This document shows positions 51,265 to 61,362 of a stretch of 64,000 bases of DNA, piece by piece. The translations under genes and the position numbers were made by a program. Within the stretch, counting starts at the first letter, position 1. Each line of letters opens with the position of its first letter. Source of the DNA: Mariprofundus ferrinatatus (lineage in GTDB: Bacteria; Pseudomonadota; Zetaproteobacteria; Mariprofundales; Mariprofundaceae); assembly GCF_002795825.1 (NCBI RefSeq), contig NZ_CP018800.1, positions 1-64,000 of the forward strand, read 5' to 3'. The notes below the pieces were generated by a model, which was not told where the DNA came from, made no database searches, and saw nothing but the letters and a program-made list of their open reading frames with translations.

Positions 51265-51276
51265 CAAGGAATGAAC

Positions 51277-52029
51277 ATGATCAAAATAGAGAATTTACAC
51301 GCATCAGTGGGCGGCAAGGAGATCCTCAAGGGGATTAACCTGGAGATCGGTGCCGGTGAAGTGCACGCCATCATGGGGCCGAACGGTTCCGGAAAATCGA
51401 CCCTCTCCAATGTGATAGCCGGCCGTGATGGCTACGAAGTCACCCAGGGCACGATCACCTATAAGGGCAAGAACCTTCTGGAAATGAATCCGGAAGAGCG
51501 CGCCTGGGAGGGCGTGTTTCTCGCCTTCCAGTATCCGGTCGAGATTCCCGGCGTGAACAACACCTATCTGCTCAAGGCGGGCGTTAATGCCAAGCGCAAG
51601 CATCAGGGTGAACAGGAGCTCGATGCGATCGATTTCATGCAGCTGGTGAAAGCGAAGGCAAAACTGGTCGAGCTCGATCAGTCATTCCTGTCACGCGGCG
51701 TGAATGAGGGTTTCTCCGGCGGTGAAAAGAAACGTAACGAGATTTTCCAGATGGCAGTGCTTGAGCCATCACTGGCGCTGCTCGACGAAACCGATTCTGG
51801 GCTTGATATCGATGCCCTGCGTATTGTCGCCAAGGGTGTGAATACGTTGCGTGCGGCAGATCGCTCGATTGTTATGGTGACGCATTATCAGCGCCTGCTC
51901 GACTACATTAAACCGGATGTCGTGCACGTGCTGGCAGACGGTAAAATCCTCAAGACCGGCGATGCCTCTCTGGCGCTGGAGCTGGAAGAGCGCGGATATG
52001 ACTGGGTTCGCGAAGAGGCTGCTGCATGA
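51277..52029 (+). CDS. sufC: Fe-S cluster assembly ATPase SufC
   Basis: ABC-type ATPase that drives SufB-SufD. Walker [10 protein letters not shown], signature [11 protein letters not shown], and Walker [15 protein letters not shown] are clear. ATG 51277 is chosen, with AAGGA spaced six bases upstream; ATG 51271 would sit directly against it. 250 residues. Overlaps sufD by four bases (ATGA). Confidence 0.98.
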
Positions 52030-53276
52030 GCAGTGTGTTGAATGCAATCCGAGAATCGGCTTGGCGGGCTTTTGCATCCGACGGGATGCCCTCTAGCCGC
52101 GATGAGGACTGGAAATATACCGACCTGTCACGCATCACAGCGGTACAGGGCGATTTGTGGTGGGAGTCTGCAGGCAAAGCCGTTGTCGATGCCGATAGCG
52201 TTACCATTCCCGGTCTTGATGCCTACCGTCTGGTGATCTGCAACGGCGTGGTCGATCTTGGCGCATCTGTAATCCCGGATGCGATCACCATTACCCCGCT
52301 GGCATCGCTGCTGCAGGATGATCCCGATGCGGTCGTTGAATTGATGCTGGATGATCGTGATGCACCGTTTGCCAGTGGCATTACCGCCTTGAACAGCGCC
52401 AGAGCATCAGATGGCTGCTGTATCTGTGTGCCCGACAGCCTGAAGCTGGACAGGCCGATCCATATTCTGCATCTGAGCAGTGGCGGTGCATCACATACCA
52501 GAACCGGCATCACTGTCGGCAGCTACGCCGAAGTTGAGATCATCGAACATTTTGCCGGCAGTGACGTTGCAGAAGGTGTGACCAACAGTGTAACGGCGAT
52601 CCGTCTGGCTGCCGGGGCCAAATGTGAGCATTATCGCCTGCAGCTTGAAGGTGCCAAACAGTGGCATCTCGGGCGTGTCGAGGTGAATCAGAAGCGTGAC
52701 TCAAACTACACCATGCATGCAGTCGAGCTGGGTTCGCAGCTCTCCCGCGTCGATGTAGTGAATGATCTTAACGAGCCCGGTGCCGAGAGCGAGCTTAATG
52801 GCCTGTTCGTGCTCTCCGGTCGCCAGCATGTCGATCACCACACCCGTATTGCACACGAGGTGCCGCACTGTCGAAGCCGCGAGAACTATCGCACTGTGCT
52901 TGATGGACGTTCGCACGGCGTATTCAACGGCAAGGTGGTGGTGGCCGAAGGGGCGATCAAGACCGACTCGGCACAATCCAATGCCAACCTGCTGCTTTCG
53001 AACCGTGCCGAGATCGATACCAAGCCGGAGCTTGAGATCTACAACGATGATGTGAAGTGCGCGCATGGTGCGACGGTGGGCCAGCTGGACAAGAACCAGC
53101 TCTTCTATCTGAAATCGCGCGGGCTTTCAGAGGAAGAGGCGAAACAGCTGCTTACGTTCGCTTTTGCCGATGCGATTCTGGCCAGAATGGGCAGCGATTC
53201 CGTGCGCCGCTATATCGAGCGCGCCGCGTTTGCCAAGTTGCCCAATATCTCCGGCCTTGAGGGGTTACTGGTATGA
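52026..53276 (+). CDS. sufD: Fe-S cluster assembly protein SufD
   Basis: SufB paralogue and partner in the SufBCD scaffold. The 416 residues carry a conserved C-terminal half with [27 protein letters not shown] and [11 protein letters not shown]. It overlaps both sufC and sufS by four bases. Confidence 0.96.
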
Positions 53277-54493
53277 CGATCGATATCCACTCAGTGCGCG
53301 CCGATTTTCCGATTCTGGATCAGCAGGTTTATGGCAGGCCGCTGGCCTACCTCGATAATGCTGCGACGACCCAGAAGCCGCAGTGTGTAATTGATGCGAT
53401 CACGAATTATTACACCCGCGACAATGCCAATGTGCACCGCGGCGTGCATGCGCTATCCGAGCGCGCAACCGCTGCCTACGAGGGGGCGCGGAAGAAGATT
53501 GCCGATTTCTTCAATGCAAAAAGCGTGCGCGAGGTGGTTTTCACGCGTGGAACCACCGAGGCGATCAATCTGGTGGCGCACAGCTGGGGCGGCGTCAATG
53601 TGCGTCATGGCGACGAGGTACTGATTACCCACATGGAGCACCACTCCAACATCGTGCCGTGGCAGATGCTTTGCGACCATGTCGGGGCAACGCTCAAGGT
53701 TCTCCCTATCAACGAGAAGGGCGAGCTGATCATGGAGGCGCTCGACGAGATGCTCTCCGGCCGCACGAAACTGGTGGGTGTTGTGCAGATGTCCAATGCG
53801 CTCGGCACGATCAACCCGGTGGCCGAAATCATTGAGCGGGCTCACGCTGTGGGTGCAAAGGTGCTGGTGGACGGGGCACAGGCGGCGGCACATATTGCCG
53901 TGGACGTGCAGGCACTCGACTGCGACTTTTATGTCACCAGTGCCCACAAGATGTACGGTCCGACCGGCATTGGCGTGCTGCTGGCCAAAGAGGGGTTGCT
54001 TGATGCCATGCCTCCCTATCAGGGCGGCGGCGACATGATCCGCATGGTCACCTTCGAGAAGACCGAGTTTAATGATCTCCCCTATAAGTTCGAGGCGGGA
54101 ACACCGAACATCTCCGGCGCCATCGGATTTGGTGCGGCGATCGATTATATCAGTGAGATTGGATTCGATGCGATCCATGCGCGAGAGAAAGAGCTGCTCG
54201 CCTACGCCACTTCCCAGGCAGAGGCATTTAAAGGATTGCGTCTGATCGGCACGGCGAAAGAGAAGGCGTGTGTATTATCCTTTGTGCTCGAAGGCGTGCA
54301 TCCGCATGACCTCGGTACTATTCTTGATCGTGAGGGGGTGGCAATCCGCGCCGGCCACCACTGCGCCATGCCGGTGATGCAGTTTTTCAAAGTTCCGGCC
54401 ACTGCGCGTGCTTCATTCTCGATCTACAACAGCGAGGCCGAAGTGGATGCGCTCTTCACGGCCCTGAAAAAAGCGCAGGAGATTTTCGGCTAA
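53273..54493 (+). CDS. sufS: Cysteine desulfurase SufS
   Basis: PLP-dependent enzyme that strips sulfur from cysteine. The PLP lysine is in TSAHKMYGPTGIG and the persulfide-forming Cys in RAGHHCAMP. Length (406) is that of group II desulfurases. Its stop overlaps the sufU start by one base. Confidence 0.97.
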   Translation: MTIDIHSVRADFPILDQQVYGRPLAYLDNAATTQKPQCVIDAITNYYTRDNANVHRGVHALSERATAAYEGARKKIADFFNAKSVREVVFTRGTTEAINLVAHSWGGVNVRHGDEVLITHMEHHSNIVPWQMLCDHVGATLKVLPINEKGELIMEALDEMLSGRTKLVGVVQMSNALGTINPVAEIIERAHAVGAKVLVDGAQAAAHIAVDVQALDCDFYVTSAHKMYGPTGIGVLLAKEGLLDAMPPYQGGGDMIRMVTFEKTEFNDLPYKFEAGTPNISGAIGFGAAIDYISEIGFDAIHAREKELLAYATSQAEAFKGLRLIGTAKEKACVLSFVLEGVHPHDLGTILDREGVAIRAGHHCAMPVMQFFKVPATARASFSIYNSEAEVDALFTALKKAQEIFG

Positions 54494-54948
54494 TGTTCGA
54501 GTTAAGGGATCTGTATCAGCAGGTGATCGTCGATCACAACAAGGCTCCGCGCAATTTCGGCAAACTGGAGCATTACAATCACGATGCCGACGGCTATAAC
54601 CCGCTTTGCGGCGACAGGCTGCATGTCTATCTTAACATCAACGATGAGGGGATTATTGATGGAGTCTCCTTCGAAGGGGAAGGCTGCGCCATTTCGGTCG
54701 CTTCTGCATCGCTGATGACCGAGACGCTGAAAGGCACGCCTGTTGCTGAGTTCAAAGAGAAGTTCGACACGTTCCAGCATATGGTAACAGCCGATCTTTC
54801 CGAGGAGCCGGATACCGAGAAGCTAGGCAAGCTGGCTGTGCTCTCCGGCGTGCGCGAATTCCCCAGTCGCATCAAGTGCGCCGTACTCTGCTGGCACACG
54901 ATGAAGTCGGCGGTTGAGGACTCCAGCGAGGTGGCGAGGACAGAATGA
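54493..54948 (+). CDS. sufU: SUF scaffold/sulfurtransferase SufU
   Basis: IscU-like protein that accepts sulfur from SufS in SUF systems without SufE. Three cysteine motifs are visible: NPLCGDRL, GEGCAISVASAS and KCAVLCWHTM. The SufU-type insertion of about 18 residues precedes the last Cys. 151 residues. Overlaps sufT by four bases. Confidence 0.94.
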   Translation: MFELRDLYQQVIVDHNKAPRNFGKLEHYNHDADGYNPLCGDRLHVYLNINDEGIIDGVSFEGEGCAISVASASLMTETLKGTPVAEFKEKFDTFQHMVTADLSEEPDTEKLGKLAVLSGVREFPSRIKCAVLCWHTMKSAVEDSSEVARTE

Positions 54949-55514
54949 ACAGAGCGGGCGATATGATTACAACCACACGCGATGTCGATGCAGTGCTGAT
55001 TCCCCTCGGCACGCCCGTGACTATTCCTGCGGGAGCGCTGGTGCTGATCACCCAGGAGCTCGGAGGCTCATATACTGTCAGCGTATCCGGCAATCTGGCC
55101 CGCATCGAAGGCAAGGATGCTGATGCCCTGGGCTTTGGTGCAGCAGAGGGTGAGGAAAAAGAGGCTGCCGCCGAAGAGAAAAAAGAGGTGACGACAGGAC
55201 CCGTCGATGAACAGCAGATATGGGATGTACTGCGAACCTGTTATGATCCGGAGATTCCGGTCAATATCGTTGATCTTGGGCTTGTTTATGATGTGCATGT
55301 GGTTGAGACCGACGAGGGTGGTAACCATGTCGATATCGTCATGACGCTGACTGCGCCCGGCTGCGGCATGGGCCCATTCATTGTCGATGATGTAAGGCAG
55401 AAGGCACTTTCGGTAGATCATGTCAGCGATGTCGAGGTGGAGCTGGTGTTCGAGCCGGCCTGGGACCGATCGATGATGTCCGATGAAGCACGCCTGCAAC
55501 TGGGCATGTTCTAA
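54945..55514 (+). CDS. sufT: SUF-associated DUF59/MIP18 protein SufT
   Basis: Accessory factor for Fe-S cluster maturation. The N-terminal part resembles the SufT-specific domain (VLIPLGTPVTIPAGALV). An Ala/Glu-rich linker at about 67-85 leads to a MIP18 (DUF59) domain with DLGLVYDV and TAPGCGMGP. 189 residues. The nnrS gene begins 5 bases after the stop. Confidence 0.93.
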   Translation: MNRAGDMITTTRDVDAVLIPLGTPVTIPAGALVLITQELGGSYTVSVSGNLARIEGKDADALGFGAAEGEEKEAAAEEKKEVTTGPVDEQQIWDVLRTCYDPEIPVNIVDLGLVYDVHVVETDEGGNHVDIVMTLTAPGCGMGPFIVDDVRQKALSVDHVSDVEVELVFEPAWDRSMMSDEARLQLGMF

Positions 55515-55519
55515 AGCAC

Positions 55520-56728
55520 ATGTCTGAGGGTTCCCCTCCAGTGATCAACATTTCCAATGGGGGCTCTGTTTCCACGCCAAAGAGGTGGAGCCCGTTCGCC
55601 CTGGGGTTCCGTCCCTTCTTTCTGCTGGCCGGGTGGTTCGCCACTCTTTTCATGGCCACTTCACTCGGTGGCTTCGTTAGCGGCATCTGGCACTACAACT
55701 ATTTCGAACTCTCCCTCTGGCATGCACATGAGATGCTGTTCGGATTCGGCGTGGCCGTCATTGCAGGTTTTTTGCTTACAGCTGTGCGCAACTGGACGGG
55801 GCTTGCCACGCCGAGCGGCTTGCCACTGGCCCTGCTGGTGCTGCTCTGGCTGGCTCCACGGGTTCTCTCGGCCGTGCCGATGCCGGCGATGATTTTTGCC
55901 CTGCTCGATATGCTGTTTCTGCCGGTTCTGGCATTGCTTATCTACCTGCGAGTGAAGCAGGCAAAACAGCCGCACAACTACAGCGTACCGGCACTATTGC
56001 TGCTGCTTGCAGTGGCCAATGCCGGCATCCACCTCGATCTGCTCGGCCAATTACCAGGGGTTTCGTCAGGGATGCTGCATCTGGGCGTTCTCACGTTTGT
56101 TGCGATCATCGTGCTGATTGGCGGGCGCGTTGTACCCTTCTTTATCGGCAGTGCAACGGCTTCGCAGGCGGGATCAAAGCGGTGGATTGAGAAGGCAGCG
56201 CTTCCTTCGGTAATGCTCTTTGCCGGGGTTAATTTACTGTTGCCTGTGGATGGGCTGGTTGCCGTCCTGGCAGTCGCAGTAGGGTTGCTGCATGCTAAGC
56301 GTATGCAGCAATGGTATGTTGCTTCTATCTGGAAAGAGCCGATGCTCTGGGTGCTCTATCTGGGTTACGCATGGCTTGTTGCAGGATTCTTCTTCTATGC
56401 AGCTGCCCTGATGTTTAATCTTCCGTTGACTGAAGCGGTGCATGCCTGGACGGTTGGTGCGATTGGTGCATTTACGCTTGGTATGATGGCGCGCGTTTCT
56501 CTCGGGCACACCGGTCGCCCTGTGCAGGCACTGCCATGGATGCCAGCAGGTTTCATTCTGATAGTTGCGGCCGCATTTGCCCGGGTTGTCATGCCTCTGA
56601 TTAATCCGGCCTGGCTTGACAGCATCGTGATGTTCAGCGCAACGTGCTGGATTATCGCATTCCTGATTTTTGCTATCCGCTATTCGATGTTGCTCCTGAA
56701 GCCGCGGCTGGATGGCAAGGAAGGCTGA
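55520..56728 (+). CDS. nnrS: NnrS family haem-copper membrane protein
   Basis: Polytopic membrane protein of 402 residues with about 12 predicted helices. NnrS proteins bind haem and copper and protect against nitric oxide, which attacks Fe-S clusters. Conserved features include FALGFRPFFLLAGWFA, WHAHEMLFGFG and GGRVVPFF. It is only 5 bases from sufT, so it appears to belong to the suf operon. It overlaps nothing but runs into the Rieske gene 10 bases later. Confidence 0.92.
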   Translation: MSEGSPPVINISNGGSVSTPKRWSPFALGFRPFFLLAGWFATLFMATSLGGFVSGIWHYNYFELSLWHAHEMLFGFGVAVIAGFLLTAVRNWTGLATPSGLPLALLVLLWLAPRVLSAVPMPAMIFALLDMLFLPVLALLIYLRVKQAKQPHNYSVPALLLLLAVANAGIHLDLLGQLPGVSSGMLHLGVLTFVAIIVLIGGRVVPFFIGSATASQAGSKRWIEKAALPSVMLFAGVNLLLPVDGLVAVLAVAVGLLHAKRMQQWYVASIWKEPMLWVLYLGYAWLVAGFFFYAAALMFNLPLTEAVHAWTVGAIGAFTLGMMARVSLGHTGRPVQALPWMPAGFILIVAAAFARVVMPLINPAWLDSIVMFSATCWIIAFLIFAIRYSMLLLKPRLDGKEG

Positions 56729-56738
56729 GGAGAGGGGT

Positions 56739-57053
56739 ATGTCTGAGTGGATCAATATTGTGGCGGAGGGCGAGTTGTCTCCGGGAAGCCGGAAAGTGGT
56801 GGCAACCCCCTATGCAGAAATTGCTGTCTTCAATATCGATGGCAAGTTCTATGCGATTGAGGATATCTGCACGCACGATGGCGGCGAACTGGCCAGTGGA
56901 ATCTGTGAGGGTGATCAGATTGTCTGTCCGCGTCACGGTGCCCGCTTCTGCATCCGGGATGGCAGGGCTCTGACTCCGCCTGCCTATGAAAATATCGATA
57001 CCTTTCCTGTGCGTATTGAGGGCGGCATGGTACAGGTAGACATCGATGGATGA
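56739..57053 (+). CDS. Rieske-type [2Fe-2S] ferredoxin
   Basis: Small soluble Rieske ferredoxin of the NirD/biphenyl-dioxygenase ferredoxin type. The two motifs CTHDGGEL and CPRHGARF supply two Cys and two His ligands. From ATG 56739, with GAGAGGGG upstream, it has 104 residues. Rieske genes of this kind often sit near suf operons; the partner is unknown. Confidence 0.93.
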   Translation: MSEWINIVAEGELSPGSRKVVATPYAEIAVFNIDGKFYAIEDICTHDGGELASGICEGDQIVCPRHGARFCIRDGRALTPPAYENIDTFPVRIEGGMVQVDIDG

Positions 57054-57056
57054 GTG

Positions 57057-57251
57057 ATGGTTCGAGCCGATGAGCAAAGGGTCAAAGCACCCTGCCTAAG
57101 TTGTCGCCACTACTTCATTACCTGGGACCAGCATCGCCCCTACGGTTGCCGGGCCTTCGGGTTTAAGGCCGCAAGGTTGCCCTGCTACGAGGTGCAAAAC
57201 GCTTCAAGCGTCCATTGTCTGAAACACGAGCTTAAACCAAAAAACAAGTGA
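57057..57251 (+). CDS. Small cysteine-rich protein, 64 residues
   Basis: Not a characterised family. Five cysteines are at 13, 16, 31, 43 and 54, in the frame CLSCRHYFITWD, GCRAFGFKA and LPCYEV, which I think is conserved in several proteobacteria. Such spacing suggests metal or cluster binding. ATG 57057 lies three bases after the Rieske stop, so it closes the suf-linked operon; GTG 57054 is an alternative. Confidence 0.75.
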   Translation: MVRADEQRVKAPCLSCRHYFITWDQHRPYGCRAFGFKAARLPCYEVQNASSVHCLKHELKPKNK

Positions 57252-57283: not shown

Positions 57284-59752
57284 ATGGGGATAAAGTGGCT
57301 CAAATCAGTGAAGATGCGACTTAAGGCTCGTTCGGATGCCGAACATGAGCAGGCGATCTTACGAATTCTGATTGCTACCATCTGTTGCTTTTACTTCTAT
57401 CTCGCCGGGCCACAGGTGGCCTTTTATATAGCCGCGTCATATTTGCCGACATCTCTAGCAATTATTGGATGGATCGTATTCTTCCCTGATGTTAATCCGG
57501 TGCGAAGATATGTCGCGATTACTACCGATGTCGGAATGGTTTCTTTGGGCGTCATCCTGTCTGGTGGCGAGGAGGGAGTTGTTTTTGTAGCAATTTATCT
57601 CTGGATTATTACCGGCAATGGTTTCCGCTTTGGCGTTAATTATCTGCTATACGCCACGCTGCTATCGTTGGCATCATTTACAGTGATTACGCGGTACAAT
57701 GCTTATTGGCACGAGCATATTCCCATGGTTGTCGGATTGTTGATAATTATTGCAATAGTTCCACTATTTATGGCGAGCCTGATTCGCAAGTTAAACAGGG
57801 CAATTGATGCGGCAGAAGCAGCAAATCAGGCCAAGTCTCAGTTTATTGCCAATATGAGCCACGAGTTGCGCACGCCGCTGAATGGCATCATTGGCATGAA
57901 TGACCTTTCATTGAGCACAAAGCTGAACAAGGAACAGAAGCGTTTCGCTATTGTGATCAGGGATTCTGCTTACCATCTTCTCGGGCTGATCGAACGCATT
58001 CTAGATATGTCCAAGATTGAGGCGGGCGGGCTTGAGCTCGAGAAAATCCCTTTCGACTTGCATCAACTTATGCATGGTGTGGTCGCCATGTTTGAAGGAA
58101 AGGCGCTGGAAAAAGGCATCAGGATTTCTCTTCATATTGATCCGGAAGTGCCCTTCTCCCTGATTGGAGATCCCAAACACCTGAAGCAGATCCTGCTCAA
58201 TATCATAGGTAACGCCGTGAAATTTACTGAACAGGGTAGCGTTAGCGTGAAGGTGGGGCTTGCTGATACAAGTGAAGAGACACGGATCGTATTCAACATT
58301 TCCGACACGGGAATTGGCATGTCTGAAGCAGCCCAGGAGAAAATCTTCGAGCGCTTTTCTCAGGCGGATTCCTCTATTACCCGTCGCTTTGGCGGCACTG
58401 GCCTCGGCACCACCATTTCAAAAAACCTGACGGAGATGATGGGAGGCTCCATTGGGCTGTTCAGCACTGAAGGGGTGGGCAGCGTGTTTACGATAGAAAT
58501 TCCCTTCGAGCGACAGGAAGACAAAACCGTTCCAAGGGATTTGACCAAGATCAATATTCTGGTGCTTGGAGAAAACTATTCGGGTAATCCACTGGAAGCG
58601 ATGCTCCATAGATGGGGGACTCATTATACTTTCATTGATAATGAAAAATTTCTTTTGTCCAGCATTGAGGATGCCTGGTCAACCGGGCATCCCTACGATG
58701 TTGTCATGGTCTGTCGCGATGCGCTCCAATGTGCGCCCGAGTTGGTAGCGCAATCGATTCGGAATAAATGTGAGTTTGCTGGTATTGATTTGATTTTGAT
58801 TGAGTCCGACAGGGCCGCCTCTTCACATTCAAGCATGGTAGAGGCCGGCTACTCTTCCGTGCTCCACCTGCCGGTTCAGCAGTCACTGCTTTTCAATGCC
58901 CTGCATGCATCCAGCATTATTCATCACTCTGCAGATATTATTTCTATCAAGGATGTAATGAAGCGAAAGATGGCTCTGCGCTCACTGAACATTCTTCTGG
59001 CCGAAGACAATCCTGTTAATCAGGAGGTGGCGAATGAGATGCTTACGAGGGCAGGTCATAAGGTCGATATCGCACACGATGGAGAAGAGGCGCTCGATGC
59101 CCTCGCCAGCGACAAAGAGTACGACCTTGTCCTTCTGGATATGAATATGCCCAATGTTTGCGGTCTTGATGTGCTGAAGCAGTTTCGCTTTATGGATACC
59201 AGTGCATCCACTCCGGTACTGATGCTCAGTGCAGATGCGCTCCCTGAAACCGTTAACGAATGTATGGAGGCGGGTGCAAACGATTACCTGACAAAGCCGA
59301 TCCGGGTTTCTGAATTGCTGGCGAAGGTAGCCGAGTTCTGCGGTGAACAGGATGAAAAATTAGAAAGGTCGGATGATGAGAGTCATTCACCCCCGCCCGC
59401 TAAGGGAAGTATTCTGGATGATGAGGTACTGGGTGAGCTGTTCGGTCTGGTTCGCGAATCTGATACTCGCGATCGTCTGTTACGTTCTTACGAAACCTCC
59501 GGCAGTGAAAGCCTGATACAGCTTCGCCAGGCTGCGGCTCAGGGTAGTAGCCAGGACTATCTATTAAGAATTCATGGGTTCAAAGGCTCTTCCGGCACGC
59601 TGGGGCTGAAAGAGGTTGTTATGCTGTGCGGGGAAATAGAAACCATTGGTGATGCCATTGGCCCTCCTGCTATGGCTGATTTCTGCAGCAAACTGGATGT
59701 TGCATTCAAACAGGGCTGTGATGCCCTGCGAGATTATCTGCGAGACAATTAA
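57284..59752 (+). CDS. rpfC: RpfC-type hybrid sensor histidine kinase
   Basis: Predicted receptor of diffusible signal factor (DSF). The N-terminus ([12 protein letters not shown]) aligns with the Xanthomonas RpfC sensor segment, followed by five membrane helices to about 168. HisKA has the phospho-acceptor His193 in [12 protein letters not shown]; the HATPase domain follows, then a receiver with [12 protein letters not shown] and a C-terminal Hpt domain with [13 protein letters not shown]. Length (822) and domain order fit RpfC. The rpfF gene is convergent, 97 bases away. No rpfG (HD-GYP) is nearby. Confidence 0.9.
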
Positions 59753-59795
59753 TATCTGTCGGGATTCTTGTTGAGGCCAGCCTTGGGATAAATAA

Positions 59796-59831
59796 GGAGT
59801 ATTACTCCGGGGAGAGAGCACCCCCCGGAGT
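59796..59831. terminator. Convergent hairpins between rpfC and rpfF
   Basis: ACTCCGGGG (59804-59812) and CCCCGGAGT (59823-59831) form a perfect 9-base-pair stem with a 10-base loop. An overlapping alternative, GGAGTA-T-TACTCC (59796-59808), cannot form at the same time. There is no T-run on either strand, so they could be weak bidirectional terminators or protect the 3' ends. Confidence 0.45.
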
Positions 59832-59849
59832 TATACAGTTGCTTTCAAA

Positions 59850-60863
59850 TTATCCCACCTTCTGAGTCTGTTTTTTTACCAGCCGTTCCATCATGCGTAA
59901 GTCCTTGGCCTCCAGCTTGAATGCTGTGTCAACCCAGATTGAAGCAACATTCAATAGCTCTTCATAGGTTACAGGGTTGCTGCAACGCTTCGCTTTTCGG
60001 AAGGCGCGATAGCCATTTCTGAAACGGCCCTCTTTTTTGATGTAATCGTAGACGGCCTGCTCTCCTTTGCCATCCTCGGCTAGAAAATCGACTACGCCAA
60101 GTTCATGCATCTCTTCCGCTGTATAAAGTCGACCGCTTAATACCAGCCGCTCTGCTTCGACCATGCCTACCTTGCGCGAAAGAAGTGCATATGCTCCTGC
60201 TCCTGGAAACAGGTTAAACAGAATATCCGGAAGGCCCATTTTTGCACTGCGTTCGGCAATAAGAACTTCGCTGGAGATGGCTGCTTCGAAACCACCACCA
60301 AGTGCGTCACCTTGAACAAGCGCAATTGTGGTAATCTCACCATTAATACCGGTATGATTTCGGTAAAGAATGTCGTTGCATGCTGTAGCATATTGCATCA
60401 AGCCATCTCGGTCTCCGTTGCCGATCAGTTCACAAAAAAGACTAAGGTCTCCGCCGAGGTTATAAATACCCGGTACATCAGAGCCGGAGACAATATATTG
60501 CACATCCTTATATAAGTGAGGTTTGGCAGTAACTTCGTCATACCAGTGTTGAATCTCTTTTGTTAGTTCATATGAGAAGCATGGCCTTGGCTTGGCGTTC
60601 ATTTTCAACCATGCAATGCCCTTATCCTGTTCAAAATGGAGGCCCATATACTTATAGCTCTCCATGGGTGTGGAAATGTTCTCATGGGCACTTGTTCGTA
60701 GTGCATTAGCTTTGAAGTGGTACTGTTCAACGTATTTGTATGCATCCAAATTATGGCTGTGCTGTTTCATGTTTGGACTCCCCTCATTGTGCACAAAGGG
60801 TTCGTTTACTTCTCTAATGTTGGTTGGTCGTAAGCTGTTGGTGTCATACTTAATTTGCCCCAT
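59850..60863 (-). CDS. rpfF: RpfF-type DSF synthase (crotonase superfamily)
   Basis: Predicted to make a cis-2-unsaturated fatty acid signal (DSF) from an acyl-ACP. Motifs shared with Xanthomonas RpfF are YNLGGDLSLFC, IALVQGDALGGGFEAA, FNLFPGAGAY and IWVDTAFKLEAKDLRMMERLVKKQ. The first catalytic Glu is kept (Glu193, GGGFE) but the second is Asp213 (GLPD). ATG 60863 has AAGGAG nine bases upstream (337 residues); ATG 60770 has GAGGGG upstream (306 residues). Either way it is longer at the N-terminus than the 289 residues of Xanthomonas RpfF. Confidence 0.88.
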   Translation of the reverse strand: MGQIKYDTNSLRPTNIREVNEPFVHNEGSPNMKQHSHNLDAYKYVEQYHFKANALRTSAHENISTPMESYKYMGLHFEQDKGIAWLKMNAKPRPCFSYELTKEIQHWYDEVTAKPHLYKDVQYIVSGSDVPGIYNLGGDLSLFCELIGNGDRDGLMQYATACNDILYRNHTGINGEITTIALVQGDALGGGFEAAISSEVLIAERSAKMGLPDILFNLFPGAGAYALLSRKVGMVEAERLVLSGRLYTAEEMHELGVVDFLAEDGKGEQAVYDYIKKEGRFRNGYRAFRKAKRCSNPVTYEELLNVASIWVDTAFKLEAKDLRMMERLVKKQTQKVG

Positions 60864-61362
60864 CTTTGTAATCTCCTTATCACAATTGTTGCGAAGGACT
60901 GCTCCCCCGGATTCGCCAGAATGCACTCTGTTCTAGTGTTACGTCAACATTCCGACGTAAATATGCATAATTTAAGGCTATATTTGCCTATACCTATGGC
61001 TAGGTTTGAGGCTTTCCTCGATGGATAAGCTGTAGCTGGCGGAATTTTGACGACAGGGAGGCGGTGAAATAAGGCGATATAGCAGGGTCGTTATTATCGA
61101 CAGCAGGCCAACTGAAAAAAGGTTTGTCGCTGTCGGTAACTATGCCGCTGTTCACAATGCCACCTTCAGTTGTTCCGTCCGAATAGCAGGTACGTATTGT
61201 TGGCAAGGTGAACAGGGTGAGCTAACAGGACTGGAGAAACCGGACAGGTTGTTGTCGTATGAAATCTGCGGGCTCGACTGATGGCGGACAGGGTGTATCT
61301 TTTGATGGATGAATGAATGTAACGCGAGCTTTGGCAGCGCTGAAGAGTGGCGAGAGAAGGCG
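60864..61362. other. Long intergenic region between rpfF and the small gene at 61363
   Basis: About 500 bases without a convincing gene. It contains the TTACGTC-N8-GACGTAA inverted repeat and an AT-rich stretch near 60961-61000. Two minus-strand frames (61000-61206, 61166-61381) lack a Shine-Dalgarno sequence and recognisable content. Frequent TATA-like words occur near 60970-61000, as expected of a divergent promoter region. Confidence 0.4.
60939..60960. promoter_or_regulatory. Inverted repeat upstream of rpfF
   Basis: TTACGTC (60939-60945) and GACGTAA (60954-60960) are a perfect 7-base inverted repeat around an 8-base spacer (22 bases in all). It lies 76 bases upstream of the 60863 start of rpfF, a normal place for an operator. 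The regulator is unknown. Confidence 0.5.

Follow-up and report, generated by a model that had tools for sequence, protein, structure and literature searches.

A putative DSF-type signalling module beside the suf genes of Mariprofundus ferrinatatus: co-inheritance of the synthase with the sensor domain

Genes of the locus

The analysed stretch of DNA (the window, 64,000 nucleotides) is part of the single-contig genome (2,301,665 bp) of Mariprofundus ferrinatatus, and the first-pass annotation had rightly taken the host for a lithotroph; it is a zetaproteobacterium. In the window, a gene for an RpfC-type kinase faces a gene for an RpfF-branch crotonase, with the stop codons of the two open reading frames 97 bp apart. 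The genes considered here are:

51271–56728, + strand: suf run upstream of rpfC, made up of the next six genes (Pfam; conserved linkage)
51271–52029, + strand: SufC (Pfam)
52026–53276, + strand: SufD (Pfam)
53273–54493, + strand: SufS (Pfam)
54493–54948, + strand: SufU (Pfam)
54945–55514, + strand: SufT-like protein (Pfam)
55520–56728, + strand: NnrS (Pfam)
56712–57053, + strand: Rieske [2Fe-2S] protein, located past the suf run and ahead of rpfC (Pfam)
57057–57251, + strand: small cysteine-rich ORF of 64 aa with CxxC (no Pfam match; conserved in at least eight relatives)
57284–59752, + strand: RpfC-type hybrid histidine kinase of 822 aa with sensor, HisKA, HATPase, receiver and Hpt parts (Pfam)
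59850–60863, − strand: RpfF-branch, DSF-synthase-like crotonase; preferred start ATG at 60863 with AAGGAG upstream

The proposed identity of the pair was borne out by Pfam domains, phospho-sites, and PDB sequence and structure matches. A strong homologue of the synthase was found in 33 of the 78 Zetaproteobacteria genomes and also in Thiobacillus-type bacteria, whose synthases were the nearest relatives outside Zetaproteobacteria among those found. The nearest named relative judged by the synthase was a zetaproteobacterial bin (MNWZ01000037.1; G050). The rpfF and rpfC genes were convergent in all 31 zetaproteobacterial loci in which both could be seen, which excludes a chance pairing, and also in the Thiobacillus-type loci wherever both lay on the DNA examined. 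The facing orientation, initially regarded as a peculiarity of this host in place of an arrangement on one strand, is shared with Xanthomonas, where rpfGHC is convergent with rpfF, and with Burkholderia, where rpfF is convergent with rpfR (PMC4504480). Gene orientation as a novelty was rejected, convergence being the canonical rpfF/rpfC layout.

In line with the first-pass annotation, the literature searched yielded no account of a DSF system from Zetaproteobacteria; in PMC8250860, papers on RpfG and quorum sensing appear only among the citations. For iron oxidisers as such, DSF signalling has a precedent, since a DSF system has been studied in the iron oxidiser Leptospirillum (PMC8357829). 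The suggested connection with stalk formation proved weak, as M. ferrinatatus is a dread-former and, while the presumed stalk-formers G049 and G070 (inferred to be strains ET2 and SR1) carry rpfF, others do not. The presence or absence of rpfF was also considered as a predictor of stalks and rejected because of G049 and G070.

The RpfC-type kinase and its sensor

Pfam placed the HisKA domain at residues 183–248 of the kinase, HATPase_c at 295–409, Response_reg at 570–682 and Hpt at 732–816, following a hydrophobic N-terminal segment of about five helices as judged by Kyte-Doolittle hydropathy only. The phospho-sites H193, D619 and H764 are all kept, and the kinase has the RpfC order of multi-helix sensor, HisKA, HATPase, receiver and Hpt together with its phospho-sites. 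The receiver matched that of RpfC in 3m6m_D (E 1.9e-26).

57284–57800, + strand: sensor domain (N-terminal segment and about five hydrophobic helices), co-varying and exchanged with the synthase
57329–57352, + strand: putative DSF-binding motif RSDAEHEQ, equivalent to R15–Q22 of Xanthomonas campestris (Xcc) RpfC, in which Ala stands in place of the essential Ser18

Full DSF sensing by Xcc RpfC needs R15, D17, S18, E19 and Q22; S18 can be substituted only by Thr, and the S18A change strongly lowers sensing (PMC5391125). The window sensor has R, D, Ala, E and Q at these positions and thus keeps four of the five. Two classes of sensors were distinguished: in class I the DSF-sensing motif is complete in most members, whereas class II sensors carry (S/N/T)PExxQ instead and are without D17 and S18. 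The differing motifs suggest that the sensors may recognise different ligands.

Two loci from other genomes had unusual kinase contents. In G022, about 10 kb separate the rpfC/rpfF pair from another RpfC-like kinase (L085, 1929–3998), which is divergent but similar in its sensor. In G057 (L104, 7348–7533), the rpfC ORF is kept (788 aa, class II sensor) and rpfF is reduced to scraps of 24 and 28 codons; this strain is possibly a listener that no longer produces a signal.

Identity of the synthase

The longest ORF of the crotonase gene extends from a GTG at 60926 (59850–60926, − strand). The best PDB sequence matches of the protein were all RpfF or DfsA enzymes (E 1e-58 to 1e-54), with the best ordinary hydratase at 6e-17. 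Its AlphaFold model (mean pLDDT 92.9) gave RpfF/DfsA chains as the top 12 structural matches, with TM scores of about 0.9. The synthase is thus nearer to RpfF/DfsA than to metabolic hydratases in both sequence and fold. This comparison covered the possibility raised at first pass that it would cluster with ordinary enoyl-CoA hydratases, and the DSF-synthase reading was not refuted. The score for the NCBIfam RpfF equivalog SgnlFctrSynRpfF was below the cut-off (232.6 against 550 bits), and the best NCBIfam match was the broader model PRK08788 for general crotonase/enoyl-CoA hydratase (365 against a cut-off of 177). Because the RpfF cut-off was missed, the protein is referred to here as RpfF-branch and not as a proven RpfF.

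A long N-terminal extension of RpfF (about 90–120 aa) was observed in the window (60665–60926) and in G046 (L071, 8919–9320) and was absent from most relatives. It offers several candidates for the start codon and the ribosome-binding site, and no tandem repeats were found behind the long N-terminus in the two dread-formers. Sphingobium-type homologues, for which no RpfC was seen on the DNA stretch examined, were entered in the RpfF tree only.

Changes in the active site

The 34 zetaproteobacterial synthase copies were aligned to solved RpfF enzymes, and three codons of the window gene were located in this way (Xcc RpfF numbering):

60285–60287, − strand: conserved codon for catalytic Glu141
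60225–60227, − strand: Asp codon at the position of catalytic Glu161
60198–60200, − strand: Ala codon at the position of substrate-contact Met170 (role of Met170, PMC9864630)

Glu141 is kept in all 34 copies. At position 161, Asp replaces Glu in 15 copies, including that of the window, in which the catalytic pair is therefore incomplete; the other 19 have both glutamates. When all positions were scanned, two split the synthase classes without exception, namely Glu161 or Asp, and Met170 or Ala/Ile. In Xcc RpfF, Glu161 is catalytic and Met170 probably contacts the DSF precursor (PMC9864630). On the RpfF tree the Asp class needed three changes, of which well-supported branches compel at least two.

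We take these replacements (E161D and M170A) to alter the substrate or product of the enzyme without killing it. It is unlikely that the Asp-type synthase is instead weak or dead and serves as a regulatory partner of RpfC in strains that listen and do not speak. Both glutamates matter for DSF synthesis in Xcc (PMC9864630), signalling in Xylella persists with an RpfF that lacks catalytic activity (PMC4504480), and G057 retains rpfC with only remnants of rpfF, all of which agree with such a loss. However, Asp is not an inert residue and is always coupled to the change in the pocket, its repeated origin on well-supported branches does not fit a dead enzyme, and the genes stay open and conserved, unlike genes in decay.

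Co-inheritance and exchange of synthase and sensor

The pairwise identity of RpfF was compared with that of five RpfC segments (sensor, kinase, middle, REC and Hpt) in 27 zetaproteobacterial loci. RpfF identity tracked sensor identity with the other four segments held constant (partial Mantel r 0.63, p 0.0005), and leaving out the bins with most contamination gave a similar result for the remaining 23 loci (r 0.62, p 0.0002), many of the relatives being metagenome bins. An independent set of 17 Thiobacillus-type loci gave r 0.96 (p 0.0005). The receiver did not track RpfF in Zetaproteobacteria (r −0.13). Out of 24 tree splits, the sensor and RpfF shared 10, RpfF and kinase 3, sensor and kinase 3, and kinase and receiver 17. 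In the AU test, the kinase topology was rejected for both the sensor and RpfF, and the sensor and RpfF trees, closer yet not identical, were each rejected on the data of the other; either synthase and sensor were therefore at times exchanged separately, or the tree of the short sensor lacks resolution.

Mosaic breakpoints were seen in individual loci. L083 and L093 share 90% identity in the kinase, 95% in the middle segment and 94% in REC, as against 34% in the sensor and 58% in RpfF; at the DNA level, two islands of low identity (the sensor, and rpfF after about codon 33) stand amid mostly 80–98% identity, with the region upstream of rpfF and its first ~33 codons 88–98% identical. Likewise, L081, L092 and L098 have a common rpfF upstream region and N-terminus (87–100%) followed by three different bodies (40–85% identity per 60-base window). 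The window locus shows 44% identity to G046 in the sensor, 82% in the kinase and 57% in RpfF; the corresponding values against G050 are 68%, 83% and 84%. About ten synthase types are present in Zetaproteobacteria at a 68% cut-off. In one bin (G029; L091, L092), several different rpfF/rpfC types were found together; this may mean that the bin, with 5% contamination, mixes strains, or that one cell contains several systems.

We read the shared ancestry of the synthase and the RpfC sensor, in which kinase and receiver have no part, as switching of pherotype (signal type). A sensor and synthase that simply evolve faster than the kinase, diverging in parallel with no exchange, could resemble it, and RpfC is indeed most variable in its sensor, which in the Thiobacillus-type loci has a median identity of 50%, compared with 84% for the kinase. 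We consider this very improbable, as the topologies conflict: L083 is nearer to L091 than to L093 in the sensor (65 against 34%) and in RpfF (70 against 58%), and the reverse holds in the kinase (77 against 90%). Speed of divergence alone cannot account for such a pattern, and the abrupt edges in DNA identity also contradict it. Least credible of all is an ordinary crotonase of fatty-acid metabolism beside an unrelated hybrid kinase, which would fit the missed equivalog cut-off and the general PRK08788 match but is opposed by the grouping with RpfF/DfsA well apart from metabolic hydratases, the invariable association with a sensor of RpfC type in two bacterial classes and the co-inheritance with the sensor domain.

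Linkage to suf genes and the missing rpfG

In the window, rpfC comes last in the order SufC, SufD, SufS, SufU, SufT, NnrS, Rieske protein, small cysteine-rich ORF, rpfC. As the cysteine-rich ORF is conserved, only about 30 bp are unoccupied in the run up to rpfC, and no terminator-like site was found between 57053 and 57284. The rpfC gene follows suf genes on the same strand in 28 of 37 rpfC loci; most exceptions end at a contig edge within 1 kb, and two (L096 and L101) are real, with long upstream sequence present. The run from suf to rpfC is likely to form one transcript, as far as gene arrangement can indicate. Since rpfC ends a run for Fe-S assembly, its expression, by this argument from gene order, may follow iron/Fe-S status.

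Neither rpfG nor rpfB adjoins the window pair, in agreement with the first reading of the locus. Among the zetaproteobacterial loci, rpfG (REC-HD-GYP) adjoins rpfC only in G068. The rest of the window genome yielded no REC-HD-GYP match above the threshold (E 1e-50); the matches above it cover the HD-GYP part only, and HD-GYP proteins with other N-termini are present. In the Thiobacillus-type bacteria, each of the 18 loci in which this stretch of DNA was covered has rpfG (REC-HD-GYP, ~373 aa) after rpfC.

Proposed mechanism and its meaning

Gene identity, co-inheritance, mosaic breakpoints, residue changes and suf linkage were seen in the analysis. From them we infer an account of how the signal is made, its chemistry, the target of the phosphorelay, the dependence on iron and the outputs. 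In it, the crotonase would most likely convert 3-hydroxyacyl-ACP into a cis-2-unsaturated fatty acid or something closely similar. RpfC, the membrane kinase, would bind this signal by its N-terminal segment, autophosphorylate and relay via its receiver and Hpt domains to a response regulator, presumably one encoded at another locus, as rpfC has no rpfG next to it. The synthase body and the sensor would constitute a split, co-inherited specificity unit, recombined repeatedly around an unchanging kinase/receiver core, and its repeated replacement may have created many signal types. The window synthase would represent the type with Asp for Glu161 and Ala for the pocket residue Met170, and with a changed substrate or product, while the amount of receptor would be tied to iron/Fe-S status through the suf run. 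As a whole, a DSF-type cell-cell signalling module with a co-exchanged synthase and sensor, altered signal chemistry and a suf-tied receptor appears to us a probable interpretation. What weighs against it is the missed RpfF equivalog cut-off, the loss of Glu161 and the Ala in the sensor motif where Xcc RpfC has Ser18.

The gene pair and its layout are expected. What is notable is the repeated co-exchange of synthase and sensor, the coupled change of a catalytic and a pocket residue, and a sensor that lacks an adjoining rpfG and is linked to genes for Fe-S assembly. Peptide systems of Gram-positive bacteria are well known for switching of signal type. For fatty-acid signals, only two variants in one species (Stenotrophomonas) were found among the literature retrieved; here such switching appears to be class-wide in Zetaproteobacteria and repeated in a second class. 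The specificity unit could be narrowed to a single domain plus a single enzyme, with known catalytic and substrate-contact residues at the positions that tell the synthase classes apart, which makes the basis of DSF specificity directly testable by domain swaps. The module also provides a candidate for cell-cell signalling among marine iron oxidisers. More tentatively, it may amount to a multi-allelic DSF language built on the co-exchanged unit, in which the signal of the Asp/Ala class would differ chemically and be heard by matched sensors only, and which, with the iron link through the suf operon, would divide neighbouring iron oxidisers into separate signalling groups; we hold this extended version to be possible but doubtful.

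Comparison with known systems

The window resembles the RpfF/RpfC/RpfG system of Xanthomonas campestris in the convergent synthase and sensor genes and in the kinase domain order, and it keeps R15, D17, E19 and Q22 of the DSF-binding segment and the catalytic Glu141. It differs in having no adjoining rpfG, rpfH or rpfB, in the suf linkage of rpfC, and in the replacement of Glu161 by Asp, Met170 by Ala and RpfC Ser18 by Ala.

In Stenotrophomonas maltophilia, the synthase and the sensor N-terminal region likewise vary together, the rpf-1 and rpf-2 variants being fully associated and having predicted recombination breakpoints (PMC4517397). There, two variants within one species differ in DSF output and in the length of the sensor, which has 10 or 5 helices (PMC4517397), whereas Zetaproteobacteria have about ten synthase types across the class, with nearly the whole synthase body and active-site residues exchanged.

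The Thiobacillus-type rpfF-rpfC-rpfG loci share the convergent layout and the sensor-synthase co-inheritance with the zetaproteobacterial ones but have rpfG after rpfC and Glu161 in all. The rpf cluster of Leptospirillum (PMC8357829), likened here by its description, also represents DSF-type genes in an iron oxidiser; unlike the window, it belongs to an acidophile of another phylum and is organised as an rpfFCG cluster.
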